Shown here piece after piece: positions 11,842 to 47,377 of a stretch of 64,000 nucleotides of DNA. The notes beneath the pieces are model-generated. The model was not told the origin of the DNA. It saw nothing but the letters and a program-made list of their open reading frames with translations, and searched no databases. This DNA comes from Maricaulis sp. Its GTDB lineage: Bacteria > Pseudomonadota > Alphaproteobacteria > Caulobacterales > Maricaulaceae. The DNA lies in assembly GCF_015665295.1 (NCBI RefSeq), contig NZ_JADFAJ010000016.1:124001-188000 (forward strand), written 5' to 3'. A program made the translations under genes and the position numbers. The stretch's first letter is position 1; every line of letters starts with the position of its first letter.

Positions 11842-12890
11842 AGGCGACCGCGCGCGATGCGGACAGGCGGGTCAGCAGGCCGGACCCGTCCATCCGGGCC
11901 TATCTGATCTATGGTCCCGATCGCGGCCTGACCCATGAACGGGCCCAGACGCTCGTCGCTGCGATTCTGGACGATCCGAATGATCCGTTCGCCCTGACCC
12001 AGCTGACAGAAGAAGATCTGAAATCCGACCCCGCCGGACTCGCCGATGCGATGGCCGCGATGTCGCTCACTGGCGGGAAACGCCTGGTACGTGTTCGGTT
12101 GAATGGTGAAACCGGAAGCGGTCCCGTCATCGAGCTGATCGCGGCCCTCGAGAAGGGCTCTCTCGCTGCGGAAGCAGTGCTGCTGGTCGAATCCGGGGAT
12201 TTAACGCCGCGAGGGAAGCTTCGAAAAACCTTCGAACCGGCAAAAAACGCAATTGCAATAGCATGTTACGCTGATACAGCTCATTCACTCGAAACGCTGT
12301 GTGAAGACATGCTCAAGGTTGAAGGCCTCAGCCTTGCTCGCGACGCGCGTGATGTGTGGTTGCCGCGCCTTGAAGGCGACCGAGCGCTCGCCCGCGGCGA
12401 GATCGAGAAACTGATCCTGTTCAAGGGACTTCGCGAGCAGCGCCGGGACGGCGATGATGTCGTCACCCGCGAGGATGTCGAGGCTGTCGCAGCAGACCAG
12501 GGCGAAGCGCAGCTCGATTCCGTTCTGTCGCCCGCCCTGCTTGGACTGCTCGAACAGGCCGATAATGCCTATCACCGCTCGATCACGGCCGGCGGATCGG
12601 CGGTTGGAATTCTTCGCGCCCTGCAAAGACGGCTCGACCAGCTCGGAGCGGTTCACGCTGCAGGCGGCAATGACGGGGCCATGGCGCGCAGCGGCGCGCC
12701 GCGTTACGGACCGCAGGCCGACGCTTTCAAACGACAGCTTTCACTGTGGCGCGGGCGCCGCCTGGATCATGCGCGGCAATTGGCCTTCGACGCCGAACGG
12801 GCGGTCAAGCGTTCCGGGGCGCCGGCCGAGGCGCTCGTCGGTGACCTCCTGATCCGGTTGGCTCGCGGCGCGGCACAGATGGGCCGCTAA
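11838..12890 (+). CDS. holA: DNA polymerase III delta subunit
   Basis: 350 residues. HolA opens the sliding clamp within the clamp-loader complex. The N-terminus has the AAA-like YLIYGPDRGLTHERA; the arginine-rich central region and the C-terminal collar domain (GILRALQRRLDQL, LWRGRRLDHARQL, LLIRLARG) fit the family. The start is GTG 11838, overlapping the lptE stop. An extension of about 20 residues precedes the core, so a slightly later start is possible. It is convergent with parB, and the stop codons overlap by 3-4 bp with no room for a separate terminator. Confidence 0.92.
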   Translation: MKATARDADRRVSRPDPSIRAYLIYGPDRGLTHERAQTLVAAILDDPNDPFALTQLTEEDLKSDPAGLADAMAAMSLTGGKRLVRVRLNGETGSGPVIELIAALEKGSLAAEAVLLVESGDLTPRGKLRKTFEPAKNAIAIACYADTAHSLETLCEDMLKVEGLSLARDARDVWLPRLEGDRALARGEIEKLILFKGLREQRRDGDDVVTREDVEAVAADQGEAQLDSVLSPALLGLLEQADNAYHRSITAGGSAVGILRALQRRLDQLGAVHAAGGNDGAMARSGAPRYGPQADAFKRQLSLWRGRRLDHARQLAFDAERAVKRSGAPAEALVGDLLIRLARGAAQMGR

Positions 12891-13825
12891 TGCGACCGGG
12901 CTGCATCGGCGCTCAGACGCCGGCAAACATCATCCAGCTGTTCCAGCGTCTTGTACTGCACCCGCAGCTCTCCGCCCTTGGCGCCGTGACGGATATCGAC
13001 CGCCAGGCCGAGGCGCGCGGTGATATCGGCTTCCAGGGCCCGGGTATCAGCATCCTTGCTGCCACCAGCTGACACGGCCGCAGACTTGGTCTCGGGCGCC
13101 GCCGGCGGATTATTGGCCTCGCGCGCCATTCTCTCGGCATCACGGACCGACAGGCCCCTGGCTACAATCTCTTCTGCCAGCACGCCCGGGTCTGGCGCGT
13201 TGGCGATCGCGCGCGCATGGCCGGCCGAGATCGCGCCACCTGCCAGGAGTTCAAGCACACTGTCAGGAAGCGACAGGAGACGCATCATATTGGCCACATG
13301 GCTGCGGCTTTTCGAGACCGCATGGGCAACATCTTCCTGGGTATGGCCAAACCGGTCGATCAGCTGACGATAGGCCTGGGCCTCTTCAACCGGGTTGAGA
13401 TCGGCCCGCTGGACGTTCTCGACAATGCCTATCTCCAGCGTTTCGCGGTCAGTCAGCTCCCGCACAAGCGCCGGGACCTCGTGCAGACGTGCCCGCTGCG
13501 CTGCCCGCCAGCGGCGCTCGCCGGCGACGATCTGGAAGCTCTGTCCGCCATCGGCCGGACGCACCAGGATAGGCTGGACAATGCCCTTGTCGGCGATCGA
13601 TTCTGCCAGCGCGTTGAGTTCAGGTTCGCTGATCGTCTTGCGCGGCTGGTCCGGATTGGGCGCAATCAGCTCAATCGGGATCATCCGCACGCCATCGCGC
13701 GACTTCGCCTTGCCAGGCGCGTGTCCGCCATCCTGAGCCGGGGCGCTATATCCCTCGGTATCAGTTTCTCCGAGCAAGGCCGACAGGCCGCGGCCGAGAC
13801 GTTTGTTCTTATCGCTGGCGCTCAT
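12887..13825 (-). CDS. parB: Chromosome partitioning protein ParB
   Basis: 312 residues. ParB binds parS, spreads and slides as a CTP-gated clamp and recruits SMC and ParA. The N-terminal KRLGRGLSALLGE is the conserved start of chromosomal ParB (ParA-contact region). The CTP-binding part has NPDQPRK and GERRWRAAQ (the GERR box), and the helix-turn-helix is TQEDVAHAVSKSRSHVANMM. The C-terminal ~50 residues form the dimerisation domain. It overlaps the end of parA by 4 bp (ATGA), indicating translational coupling. Target parS sites lie in the same operon at 15.2 and 17.2 kb. Confidence 0.96.
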   Translation of the reverse strand: MSASDKNKRLGRGLSALLGETDTEGYSAPAQDGGHAPGKAKSRDGVRMIPIELIAPNPDQPRKTISEPELNALAESIADKGIVQPILVRPADGGQSFQIVAGERRWRAAQRARLHEVPALVRELTDRETLEIGIVENVQRADLNPVEEAQAYRQLIDRFGHTQEDVAHAVSKSRSHVANMMRLLSLPDSVLELLAGGAISAGHARAIANAPDPGVLAEEIVARGLSVRDAERMAREANNPPAAPETKSAAVSAGGSKDADTRALEADITARLGLAVDIRHGAKGGELRVQYKTLEQLDDVCRRLSADAARSH

Positions 13826-14679
13826 GCCACTTCACCCTGTTCTTCGCGACGACGCTTGCGTTCCTGCTGGACGATCTCCTTGGCCAGGCTGATATAGGCT
13901 TGAGATCCGGAGCACTGCAGGTCATAGAGCAGGACCGGTTTGCCGACAGACGGCGCCTCGGAAACCCGCACATTGCGCGGAATGACTGTCTTGTAGACCT
14001 TGTCGCCGAAATGCTCGCGAACATCTGCCGCGACCTCGGCCGACAGATTATTGCGGCTGTCATACATGGTCAGAACCACGCCCTGGATATCCAGGCGTGA
14101 ATTGAGATGACCCCGCACCCGGTCGATCGTCTTGAGCAGCTGGGACAGGCCCTCCAGGGCAAAGAACTCGCACTGCAGCGGCACCAGGATGGCATCTGCG
14201 GCTGTCAGGGAGTTCACCGTCAGCACATTCAATGATGGCGGGCAGTCGATCAGGATATAGTCGAGCGCGGCCGCATCCGGTCCCAGTGCTTGCATGCTCT
14301 GGTCGATCGCGCGCTTGAGGCGATAGGAGCGACGCTGGTCATCAGCCAGTTCCAGCTCGGCTCCTGACAACAGCTCGTCCGACGGAACAATGCTCAGTCC
14401 GGGCACCACGGTCGGAACCATGGCTGACTTGAGGGAATCCCCGCCCACCAGGACATCATAGGATGTCAGCGTTCGCTTTGCCGGCGGTACGCCAAGCCCG
14501 GTCGAGGCATTGCCCTGCGGATCGAGATCGATGATCGCGACCTTCTGTTTGATCGCCGCCAGGGCCGTTCCCAGATTGATGGCGGTCGTGGTCTTGCCAA
14601 CTCCGCCTTTCTGGTTGGCGACAGCGATGACACGGGGCGCCTTGGCGCGCTGGACGTCAGTTGGCACGTTCCACCTCAT
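13822..14679 (-). CDS. parA: Chromosome partitioning ATPase ParA
   Basis: 285 residues of the Walker-type ParA/Soj family that drives segregation of the origin with ParB. Motifs: deviant Walker [15 protein letters not shown] near residue 25, switch [11 protein letters not shown], and Walker [12 protein letters not shown]. The ATG at 14679 gives a 16-residue N-terminal extension before [11 protein letters not shown] and overlaps the rsmG stop by 23 bp. A shorter start at a GTG (codon 5) exists, but the overlap and family length favour the longer form. Operon order mnmG-rsmG-parA-parB is conserved across alphaproteobacteria. Confidence 0.96.
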
Positions 14680-15280
14680 GAATGCGCAGGATCACCCCGC
14701 CACTGGTCCGACTGGGTATGACTTCATGATCGAATGTCCAGTGTTTAGCGGCCTCGGTCAATTCATCGCGATAGTTTTGCCCTTTGAAGAAAAGGCCTTG
14801 TGCCCTGTTTTTCAACAAGGGCTCCACATAGCCCAATAATTTATTCAAGGGCGCGAAGGCCCGGGCCGTCACCAGATCAAAGCCTTCAGCCGGATCGAGA
14901 GTCTCAACCCGCACGGATCGGGCCTCGGCGTCGAGATCCAGGGCGTTGATGGTCTTGCGCAGAAAGGCCACCTTCTTGCCCACGGAGTCGACCATTATCA
15001 CCCGCGCGGCCCGGCCCCGATCGCGAAACCCGAGCGCCAGCGCGATACCAGGAAAGCCGGCACCGGCTCCGAGATCCGCGACACGGCTCACACCCGGGGC
15101 GATATGATCAAGCAGCTGGAAACTGTCCATGGCATGGCGCTCCCAGAACTGGTCAAGGGTGGAGCGACCAACCAGATTGGTGTGCGTATTGGTTTCAACC
15201 AGCAGACGCCGCCACTCATCAAAACCGTCGAGTGTTTCACGTGAAACACCGGTTTCGCGTCCGAAAGCCGCTCGATCCAT
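14657..15280 (-). CDS. rsmG: 16S rRNA (guanine-N7)-methyltransferase RsmG
   Basis: 207 residues, methylating G527 of 16S rRNA. SAM-binding motif I is [17 protein letters not shown], and the N-terminal RWNKW-like region is replaced by the alphaproteobacterial form [34 protein letters not shown] is the conserved motif near the active site. It starts directly after the mnmG stop with no gap. A perfect parS palindrome lies inside its first codons (15233-15248). Confidence 0.95.
15233..15248. promoter_or_regulatory. parS centromere site (perfect)
   Basis: TGTTTCACGTGAAACA is a perfect 16-bp palindrome containing the canonical ParB site GTTTCACGTGAAAC. It is inside the 5' end of rsmG, about 0.6 kb upstream of parA and 12 kb from the proposed origin. 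Known family: ParB binds this sequence in nearly all bacteria with chromosomal ParABS. Confidence 0.96.
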
Positions 15281-17225: not shown

Positions 17226-17241
17226 TGTTTCACGTGAAACA
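17226..17241. promoter_or_regulatory. parS centromere site (perfect)
   Basis: A second perfect TGTTTCACGTGAAACA palindrome, in the 122-bp gap between mnmE and mnmG. It lies upstream of mnmG, so ParB bound here might also affect transcription of the mnmG-rsmG-parA-parB operon (inference). Spacing to the rsmG site is about 2.0 kb. Confidence 0.96.
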
Positions 17242-26414: not shown

Positions 26415-27452
26415 TCAGGCGCGTGACCGGATTCGCGCCAGTAATTGCTCGACATGACTCACCGGCACGTCCGGCGTTATCCCGTGGCCGAGATTGAAGA
26501 TATGGGGCCGGCCCGCCCAACTATCCAGCAAGCGATCCACCTCGCTATCCAGAGCCTTGCCGCCGGCCCGCAAGGCGGCAGGATCAAGATGGCCCTGGAC
26601 GGGCATGCCGGCCGGAAGCACGGACTGGATCCAGGCCGGGTCCACTGCCGTATCGATGGCGATCGCCGTGACCCCGGTTTCGCGGGCATAGCGCGGGTAA
26701 AGCGTTCCGGCGCCACGCGGAAAGCCGATGATCGGGACATCAACGCCAGCAGCCCGGACCGCCTCGATGATCCGTCGCGTCGGCCGGATGATGACCCGCT
26801 CGAACAGGGGCTCCGGAAGGCCTTCGGCCCAACTGTCGAACAGCTTGAGGACTTCGGCCCCACAGCGCGCCTGCATGACCAGATATTCTGCCGTGACATC
26901 GGCAATCCTGTCCATCATGGCATCAAAGGCCTCCGGATGCTCCCAGGCCGCCACGCGGGCGCGGAACCGGTCCTTCGAACCGCCGCCCTCGATCATGTAG
27001 GTCGCGACGGTCCAGGGCGATCCGGCAAAGCCGATCATCGTCGTGGTCTCGGGCAATTGTGGCACGACCCGTTTGAGGGTTTCGCCAATCGGGGCCAGCA
27101 CGGCTTCCGTCTGGTCCGTCCTCAATTCCTCGAACAGCCTCGGATCGAAGGGTTCCAGCTGCGGACCCTCGCCGGTTACGAACCAGACCTTGCGGCCCAG
27201 CGCGATCGGCACCAGCAGGATATCGGCAAACAGGATCGCGGCATCAAAGCCGAAGCGCCGGATGGGTTGAAGGGTCACTTCTGCGGCCAGATCGGGCGAG
27301 AAGCAGAAATCGATGAAGTTCTTCGCCCGGGAGCGTACTTCGCGATATTCCGCGAGATAGCGCCCGGCCTGACGCATCAGCCAGACAGGCGGGGGCGAGA
27401 CGGCTTGACCGGCGAGAACCTGAAGGAGGGGTTTTTGGATCATGTCATTCAT
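26415..27452 (-). CDS. hemE: Uroporphyrinogen III decarboxylase
   Basis: 345 residues, the usual length. It converts uroporphyrinogen III to coproporphyrinogen III. The N-terminal PPVWLMRQAGRYLAEYR is the family signature, with the conserved Arg residues; GFAGSPWTVATYMIEGGGSKD and GFPRGAGTLYPRYA are later motifs. In Caulobacter hemE also forms one border of Cori, and the strong hemE promoter overlaps the origin. Here the gene starts (ATG 27452) at the left edge of the proposed oriC. A second in-frame ATG at 27443 is present. Confidence 0.97.
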   Translation of the reverse strand: MNDMIQKPLLQVLAGQAVSPPPVWLMRQAGRYLAEYREVRSRAKNFIDFCFSPDLAAEVTLQPIRRFGFDAAILFADILLVPIALGRKVWFVTGEGPQLEPFDPRLFEELRTDQTEAVLAPIGETLKRVVPQLPETTTMIGFAGSPWTVATYMIEGGGSKDRFRARVAAWEHPEAFDAMMDRIADVTAEYLVMQARCGAEVLKLFDSWAEGLPEPLFERVIIRPTRRIIEAVRAAGVDVPIIGFPRGAGTLYPRYARETGVTAIAIDTAVDPAWIQSVLPAGMPVQGHLDPAALRAGGKALDSEVDRLLDSWAGRPHIFNLGHGITPDVPVSHVEQLLARIRSRA

Positions 27453-27734
27453 CCGCCCTGCTTAGGCATGTCTTATCGACGGATCAATCAGTCCCTTTCA
27501 TCTCTCTAAAAAGATTAAATAGATTGTTGAAGTTTGTTGGGGCGTTGATGACGTGGATGACCGGGTTTTTACCCGTTATCCGGCGAGGTATGGCCGGGTT
27601 TTCTCCCTCCACAACTGGCGATATTCGATGAACGGCAAAATTGATTTCAGCAAATTAAAACAAAGCGTTACTGATCTGAATAGATGTGGAATGACAGTGG
27701 AAAACCGTTGCGCCGACGGCCATCAGCCAAAACA

Positions 27735-27743
27735 TGATCCACA
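27735..27743 (+). promoter_or_regulatory. DnaA G-box TGATCCACA
   Basis: Exact match to the moderate-affinity DnaA G-box described for Caulobacter Cori. It is followed 4 bp later by a weaker TTTCCACGA and by an inverted CTGTCCACA at 27767-27775, a cluster of three sites in 41 bp. Confidence 0.7.
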
Positions 27744-27860
27744 AACCTTTCCACGAAGGGATGAGATGTGGACAGCGCTGTGGGTTGTTCATGGTAAGAC
27801 CGGGTACTACTCACAGTCTTCCTCTGCTGATTGCCGAGTTGGGGAAAACAGCCCTATTTA

Positions 27861-27875
27861 TTAACAATTGGTAAA
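27861..27875. promoter_or_regulatory. CtrA-like box TTAA-N7-TAAA
   Basis: TTAACAATTGGTAAA matches 7 of the 8 defined positions of the CtrA consensus TTAA-N7-TTAA. It lies 23 bp upstream of the ppsR ATG at the right edge of the origin, a position where CtrA could both block initiation and control transcription (inference from Caulobacter). ctrA itself is not in the window. Confidence 0.45.
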
Positions 27876-27897
27876 CGCTATCCCGGTGCCCGGCCCC

Positions 27898-28737
27898 ATG
27901 CCCCCCACGAATTCGCCTTTTGATACCTGCTTCCACATCCACATGGTTTCCGATTCGACCGGCGAGACCCTGATGGAGGTAATGCGTGCGTCGGTTGCCC
28001 AGTTCGAAGGCACCAGTCCGCTTGAACATCTCTACGCCTTGGTTCGATCCTCGAAACAGCTTGATCGTGTCCTTGATGAAGTGGCTGCCTATCCCGGCGT
28101 TGTGATGTACACGATCGTCAATGCTGATCTGCGGCGTGAGCTGGAAACCCGCTGCGTCGAACTGGGTGTACCGGCGATTGCCATTCTCGATCCGATGCTG
28201 GCCACGCTCAGCGCCTATCTGGGCCGACCAGTGGCCAGTCGTGCCGGCGCACAGCGGTCGCTGGATGCTGATTATTACCGCCGCATTGATGCGCTGAACT
28301 ATGCCATGGCCCATGATGACGGCCAGGGTGATGATTTCGAGGGTGCCGACATTGTTCTGTTGGGTGTCAGCCGGACCTCGAAGACGCCAACGAGCGTCTA
28401 TCTCGCCCATCGTGGTTTCCGCGCCGCCAACATCCCGCTGGTCAAGGACGTCCCCCTGCCGCCGGATATTTTTCACTTGCGCAATCCGCTGGTTGTCGGA
28501 CTGACGGCCTCGCCGGAACGAATCGTCCAGATCCGGCGAAACCGCCTCCTCAGCCTGAATGAGGACCGGGACACGAATTATATCGACGATTTTGCAGTGC
28601 GCGAGGAAATCCTTTTCGCCAAGCGCCTGTATGCCAAACATAAATGGCCGACCATCGATGTCACGCGACGCTCGATCGAGGAGACCGCTGCCAAGATCAT
28701 CAACCTCCTCATGGAAAAACGGAACCTCACGGCATGA
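27898..28737 (+). CDS. PEP synthase / pyruvate phosphate dikinase regulatory protein (DUF299)
   Basis: 279 residues from ATG 27898; the track start (TTG 27868) is within the CtrA-like box and unlikely. The N-terminus HIHMVSDSTGETL and the P-loop-like GVSRTSKTPTSVYLA define the family of bifunctional kinases/pyrophosphorylases that switch PPDK or PEP synthase by threonine phosphorylation using ADP. It is the first gene of the rightward operon ppsR-maf-aroE-coaE, and overlaps maf by ATGA. The same family (RP001/CC_0001) borders Cori in Caulobacter. Confidence 0.94.
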   Translation: MPPTNSPFDTCFHIHMVSDSTGETLMEVMRASVAQFEGTSPLEHLYALVRSSKQLDRVLDEVAAYPGVVMYTIVNADLRRELETRCVELGVPAIAILDPMLATLSAYLGRPVASRAGAQRSLDADYYRRIDALNYAMAHDDGQGDDFEGADIVLLGVSRTSKTPTSVYLAHRGFRAANIPLVKDVPLPPDIFHLRNPLVVGLTASPERIVQIRRNRLLSLNEDRDTNYIDDFAVREEILFAKRLYAKHKWPTIDVTRRSIEETAAKIINLLMEKRNLTA

Positions 28738-29324: not shown

Positions 29325-30163
29325 CGGTTTCAGGCGCAGCCCGGATTGCCGGGGTAACGGGAGACCCGGTTTCACATTCGCTGTCGCCTATCCTCATGCA
29401 GATATGGATCGAGGCAGCCGGCCTGGATGCGCTTTATGCACCCTTTCCCGTCTTGCCCCAGGATTTCGAGACAGCGATCCGCGGTCTGGCCAAGGCGGGG
29501 TGTCGCGGCGTCAATGTGACCTTGCCCCACAAGGAGGCCGCCCTCGAATTCGCCAATGCATCCTCGTCGATCGCCCGTGCCGTGGGTGCGGCTAACCTGC
29601 TGACATTCACATCAGCCGGCATTCATGCTGACAATACTGACATTGCCGGTTTCCTGGCCGCCCTTGAGCCCGCCAATCTTGATTACGGAAAGACCCGGGC
29701 GCTGGTTTTCGGCGCTGGCGGCGCTGCGCGTGCGCTCGTTTATGCCCTCCTGACAGTCGGGGTTACCAAGCTGGCCATCTGCAATCGCAACATGACCCGG
29801 GCCCAGGGCCTCGCGCGTGATATTGCCCCGGACGCTGACATCATTCCCTGGGATGCGCGGGATGACGCCCTTTCCGGCAGCAATCTGATCGTCAATGCAA
29901 CTTCGCTCGGTCTCAATGGGAACACCGAGCTTGTGCTGGACTGGCAACGGGTCGCACCAGGTAGTGTTGCCTTTGACAGTGTCTATACACCCTTGAATAC
30001 AGGGTTTCTGGCCGGTGCGGCCGGGCGTGGTCTGACCGCGATTGACGGGCTGGACATGCTGATCGGACAGGCTCGTCCCAGCTTTCAGGCCTTTTACGGC
30101 CGACCGGTGCCGCACGTAGCGGATCTCCGCAACCGTCTGATCCGCGTGCTCGAGGCCCGGTGA
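29321..30163 (+). CDS. aroE: Shikimate dehydrogenase
   Basis: 280 residues. It reduces 3-dehydroshikimate with NADPH in the shikimate pathway. Substrate-binding part: GVTGDPVSHSLSPIL and CRGVNVTLPHKEAAL (catalytic Lys); NADP-binding part: ALVFGAGGAARALVYAL and ICNRNMTRAQ; C-terminal GLDMLIGQARPSFQAFYG. The ATG overlaps the Maf stop and the stop overlaps the coaE ATG (TGATG), so the operon is translationally coupled throughout. Confidence 0.96.
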   Translation: MTVSGAARIAGVTGDPVSHSLSPILMQIWIEAAGLDALYAPFPVLPQDFETAIRGLAKAGCRGVNVTLPHKEAALEFANASSSIARAVGAANLLTFTSAGIHADNTDIAGFLAALEPANLDYGKTRALVFGAGGAARALVYALLTVGVTKLAICNRNMTRAQGLARDIAPDADIIPWDARDDALSGSNLIVNATSLGLNGNTELVLDWQRVAPGSVAFDSVYTPLNTGFLAGAAGRGLTAIDGLDMLIGQARPSFQAFYGRPVPHVADLRNRLIRVLEAR

Positions 30164-47361: not shown

Positions 47362-47377
47362 TGTTTCACGTGCAACA
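47362..47377. promoter_or_regulatory. parS-like site on the right replichore
   Basis: TGTTTCACGTGCAACA differs from the perfect parS palindrome by one base (A to C in the right half). It lies in the 121-bp gap between the WYL-regulator and dapB genes, 20 kb to the right of oriC, whereas the other copies are 10-12 kb to the left. Confidence 0.6.

Follow-up and report, generated by a model that had tools for sequence, protein, structure and literature searches.

Where does chromosome replication begin in Maricaulis? In Caulobacter the origin, Cori, is bounded by hemE and COG1806 and combines an AT-rich stretch of ~40 bp with DnaA and CtrA sites (PMC1914354), and the original prediction for the Maricaulis locus described here placed a replication origin in the equivalent gap. 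We analyzed this gap in a 64 kb stretch of DNA (hereafter the window), which corresponds to positions 124,001-188,000 of a 239,715-bp contig from a draft Maricaulis genome (G000 contig C3), and compared it with the homologous gaps of relatives.

The gap lies between two divergent genes, both named by NCBIfam models: hemE on the left (26415-27452, minus strand; TIGR01464, 376 bits) and ppsR on the right (27898-28737, plus strand, ATG at 27898; NF003742, 321 bits), the latter being 99% identical to its counterpart in M. maris DSM 4734. The sequence between them (27453-27897) is exactly 445 bp long, above the 300 bp taken as the intergenic criterion for hemE-COG1806/ppsR, and it is the counterpart of the gap that holds Cori in Caulobacter, where ppsR appears as COG1806 (PMC1914354). 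The surrounding gene order reads parB-parA-gidB-gidA-mnmE ... rho-hemJ-hemH-hemE / gap / ppsR-maf-aroE-coaE-dnaQ-secB ... hslU; for ten neighborhood proteins checked against NCBIfam, eight had a model above cut-off with the expected name, parB passed a ParB-family domain model and parA had ParA-type matches below cut-off only; the names of the other genes were read from the sequence. A 103-aa open frame inside the gap (27553-27864) is interrupted by internal stops in relatives with equal gap length, and is therefore not a gene. Across 20 Maricaulis species the gap measures 437-504 bp and keeps its layout, with a mean sequence identity of only 50%.

The original prediction described a cluster of nonamers resembling DnaA boxes, and the counts agree: seven nonamers with at most two mismatches to TTATCCACA lie within the gap (27473, 27552(-), 27696(-), 27735, 27767(-), 27840(-) and 27858), compared with 1.41 expected by shuffling, and none of 500 shuffles contained as many. 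No second 445-bp stretch across the 239,715-bp contig reaches seven. Boxes are similarly enriched in the gaps of relatives, with totals of 142 vs. 29 expected in the 20 Maricaulis gaps and 230 vs. 46 expected in 44 other gaps. Five further nonamers with three mismatches retain a CACA or CCAC core (27605, 27685(-), 27747, 27779(-) and 27807). From left to right, the central and right-hand part of the gap carries the weak DnaA-like boxes CCCTCCACA (27605-27613, plus strand), CATTCCACA (27685-27693, minus) and TTTTCCACT (27696-27704, minus), the G-box TGATCCACA (27735-27743, plus), the weak box CTTTCCACG (27747-27755, plus), the DnaA box CTGTCCACA (27767-27775, minus), whose plus-strand TGTGG is kept in 20/20 Maricaulis, and the weak boxes CAACCCACA (27779-27787, minus), CTACTCACA (27807-27815, plus) and TTTTCCCCA (27840-27848, minus), the last ending in TCCCCA, the hexamer of the Caulobacter W-box (PMC4285127).

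The canonical strong box is missing, as had been noted: exact TTATCCACA occurs neither in the 20 Maricaulis gaps nor anywhere in the 240-kb contig. The exact G-box is where the original prediction put it, yet proved to be private to the window's species (1/20), with a box-like 9-mer at the same place in most relatives. Nor is a lone copy remarkable, as the window holds two and 11 of 100 shuffles hold at least two; the non-random feature is the cluster rather than the G-box. Other weak boxes are conserved among the 20 Maricaulis gaps: alignment columns beneath boxes have a conservation of 0.64, vs. 0.46 elsewhere, and among the 445 circular shifts of the boxes only one, the true register, reaches 0.64. 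The proposal that initiation may depend on many weak sites is consistent with this cluster, but has to be extended by a module at 27528-27560, not named in the original prediction, that resembles the basal unwinding system (BUS).

This module adjoins the AT-rich DNA near hemE. The 30-bp AT-rich stretch noticed earlier is located at 27496-27525 (80% A+T), and when extended to 27496-27535 it exceeds every other 40-mer of the 64 kb in A+T content; we presume this stretch to be the DNA unwinding element. On the plus strand it is followed by a degenerate DnaA-trio position and a GC-rich cluster (27528-27542, placed by anchored comparison), and then by two directly adjacent weak DnaA boxes on the minus strand (27543-27560; TCATCCACG at 27552-27560 and TCATCAACG at 27543-27551, in plus-strand reading CGTTGATGA and CGTGGATGA). 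BUS elements consist of DnaA boxes, a GC-rich spacer and DnaA-trios, with spacers peaking at 10-13 bp and GAT the commonest trio beside the box (PMC8287927). The Maricaulis arrangement shares their order, their orientation, a spacer of 12 bases between the distal box and the first trio position (within the 16 bp of the BUS criterion) and AT-rich DNA beyond. Outside the genus the likeness is closer: TAG with a DnaA box 4-18 bases further on was found in 28 of 44 non-Maricaulis gaps vs. 3.8 by shuffle, and in 13 in reverse orientation, so that the orientation is favored without being exclusive. The spacer has 12 bases in 13 of these 28 gaps, including most matches from Maricaulaceae. Where other genera have TAG, most Maricaulis have TTG, TGG or TCG (T-N-G), and the window has TTG beside the spacer; because the anchoring score for Maricaulis rewarded T and G at the two outer positions, the middle base is the sole independent reading here. 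With TTG in place of the BUS consensus TAG (3'-GAT-5'), the module is degenerate, and three good DnaA-trios were not seen in the window. Judged by its sequence, the AT-rich stretch appears to lead into a BUS-like module that is clearer in related genera (TAG) than in the window (TTG).

A second conserved element is a tandem of the box GGTN3ACC (27793-27811), a putative factor site reading GGTAAGACC-G-GGTACTACT (the GGTAAGACCGGGTACTACT tandem), whose end is overlapped by the weak DnaA-like box at 27807. We counted 34 copies of GGTN3ACC across 19/20 Maricaulis gaps vs. 2.8 by shuffle, several of them in tandem with 10-bp spacing, and the spacing controls GGTN2ACC and GGTN4ACC showed no enrichment in the same gaps. 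The long form GGTANNACCNGGTNNTAC has a single occurrence in the window's genome, at 27793, and a 23-base version (at most two mismatches) was found in 18/19 Maricaulis genomes, usually as a single copy and usually at the origin, the extras being a few overlapping matches on the opposite strand and one further place in one genome (G007). In related genera GGTN3ACC boxes are found at the hemE side instead. Strict tandems also occur in or adjoining parB in three other Maricaulis species (L168:6207, L166:5003 and L167:4812, from G001, G002 and G005), two of them at the same coding-sequence place. A second tandem near parS was considered and rejected: outside the origin, strict tandems are roughly as frequent as matches to a reversed-pattern control, and none lies near parS in the window's genome. 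The parB-associated tandems may be chance matches.

Which protein might recognize this box? The 9-bp core is identical to that of the E. coli PdhR box, GGTnnnACC (PMC7660256), and ppsR belongs to pyruvate/PEP metabolism, so a GntR regulator of the FadR/PdhR type could bind here and tune ppsR or hemE, an explanation that concerns the box only and is compatible with an origin. We consider it unlikely, since regulators with an FCD domain (PF07729) were not found in two box-bearing genomes, G003 (99% complete, with three origin boxes) and G009, and boxes at the hemE side in related genera also argue against it; a FadR-type GntR binder is therefore not supported. GapR, which binds both Cori and the par locus, was also considered and set aside, as it is not known to have a GGTN3ACC motif. 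A tentative reading, to which we give somewhat less than even odds, is that an undescribed origin-binding regulator of Maricaulaceae, acting beside the DnaA assembly and in addition to CtrA, recognizes the tandem.

At the ppsR border the original prediction had pointed to a near-CtrA site. This site, TTAACAATTGGTAAAC (27861-27876, plus strand), fits TTAA-N7-TWAA, a pattern present in 20/20 Maricaulis gaps vs. 0.3 per shuffled set. The window's copy, a single near-site, reads TTAA-N7-TAAA; perfect TTAA-N7-TTAA occurs in 2/20 Maricaulis gaps and in 11/19 gaps of a broader family set. In the stalked relative Hyphomonas neptunium a CtrA binding site adjoining the origin was mapped by ChIP-seq (PMC7200025). 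The IHF pattern WATCAN4TTR, a weak consensus and stricter than the published WATCAN5WTR, matched in 0/20 Maricaulis gaps. GANTC, the CcrM motif, is absent from the gap in the window's species and several close relatives and occurs 1-4 times in other Maricaulis; at a contig-wide 1.4 per kb, its absence over 445 bp is not clearly beyond chance.

Partitioning genes lie close by. To the left, 10-15 kb from the gap, are parB (12887-13825, minus strand; ParB-family domain model TIGR00180 above cut-off), parA (13822-14679, minus strand; ParA-type matches, all below their cut-offs) and two exact parS sites GTTTCACGTGAAAC (15234-15247 and 17227-17240), with 0.09 matches expected at up to two mismatches. 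A one-mismatch parS, GTTTCACGTGCAAC, is found ~20 kb to the right of the gap (47363-47376).

The GC-skew check proposed with the original prediction was made on sampled stretches of two closed relatives, with 40 stretches of 20 kb each in G010 (3,142,398 bp) and a further 20 stretches in G015 (3,368,780 bp). Skew in G010 was positive throughout the half of the circle that runs rightwards from the gap (23/23 stretches, mean +0.0248) and negative throughout the other half (17/17 stretches, mean -0.0246), so that the sign switches at the homologous gap (3,032,564-3,033,007) and again about half-way round. Within a contiguous 200-kb block of this genome (2,920,001-3,120,000) the cumulative minimum falls at 3,032,617, inside the gap. 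The same two-halves pattern was obtained for G015, with the minimum of a single 20-kb piece around the gap 1.8 kb to its right. The contig that contains the window has its minimum at window position 29908, 2 kb to the right of the gap; in this contig, 15/15 10-kb bins left of contig position 150,000 are negative and 8/8 in 150,001-230,000 are positive, with the gap at 151,453.

Both closed Maricaulis records (L068 = G010 and L072 = G015) are numbered from dnaA, starting within ~530 bp of it, which would fit an origin at dnaA with the hemE/ppsR gap serving as a regulated promoter region only. Skew contradicts this: in G010, dnaA sits within the positive-skew arm with positive skew on both its sides, and the sign changes ~110 kb away, at the gap. 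We therefore regard an origin at dnaA as very improbable, and coordinate 1 of these genomes, ~110 kb off the origin, does not mark it. Even less probable is that the conserved motifs control transcription of hemE and ppsR and the true origin is a neighboring stretch within ~2 kb, a reading favored by skew minima 1.8-2 kb to the right in two of the three sequences examined and by the resemblance of the CtrA-like and GGTN3ACC sites to regulator sites, but opposed by a DnaA-box count unmatched in other 445-bp stretches of the contig, by the G010 minimum inside the gap, and by the almost unbroken coding sequence of ppsR-maf-aroE-coaE on the right.

Collectively, the position of the gap, the skew switch in relatives, the density of boxes and the conservation of place and length are observed, and with parABS nearby they uphold the origin interpretation: we put the probability that these 445 bp (27453-27897) are the chromosomal origin of Maricaulis, at a position homologous to that of Caulobacter Cori, at roughly 95%. 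The C. crescentus origin shares the hemE-COG1806/ppsR location, an AT-rich stretch and a nearby parS (PMC1914354, PMC4285127, PMC4468827), as well as weak DnaA sites of the G-box type TGATCCACA and the W-box type TCCCCA, and its TTAA-N7-TTAA CtrA sites have a near match in the window's gap. Differences are that Cori has five CtrA sites whereas the window's gap has one CtrA-like site, that a WATCAN4TTR match is absent from the Maricaulis gaps and GANTC from the window's, that the exact G-box is confined to 1/20 species, that a GGTN3ACC tandem is added, and that in a closed relative ~110 kb separate dnaA from the gap.

From these features we infer binding by DnaA and CtrA, a place of melting and cell-cycle control, which could act together as follows. 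DnaA would gather on the many weak boxes along the gap, and the tandem boxes at 27543-27560 would direct a DnaA filament leftwards, across the GC-rich cluster and the trio-like bases into the AT-rich stretch by hemE, which would then melt and take the helicase. At the ppsR border, binding of CtrA to the TTAA-N7-TAAA pair would contribute to keeping the origin of swarmer cells silent, and parABS, 10-15 kb off, would afterwards separate the new copies.

As a chromosomal origin the locus is ordinary and well supported, new in its detail for Maricaulis and with one additional conserved box, GGTN3ACC. For this stalked marine genus it fixes the origin, 110 kb from the dnaA gene at which the numbering of the closed genomes starts, and the aligned set of 20 Maricaulis origins provides a resource on the evolution of DnaA, CtrA and unwinding sites.
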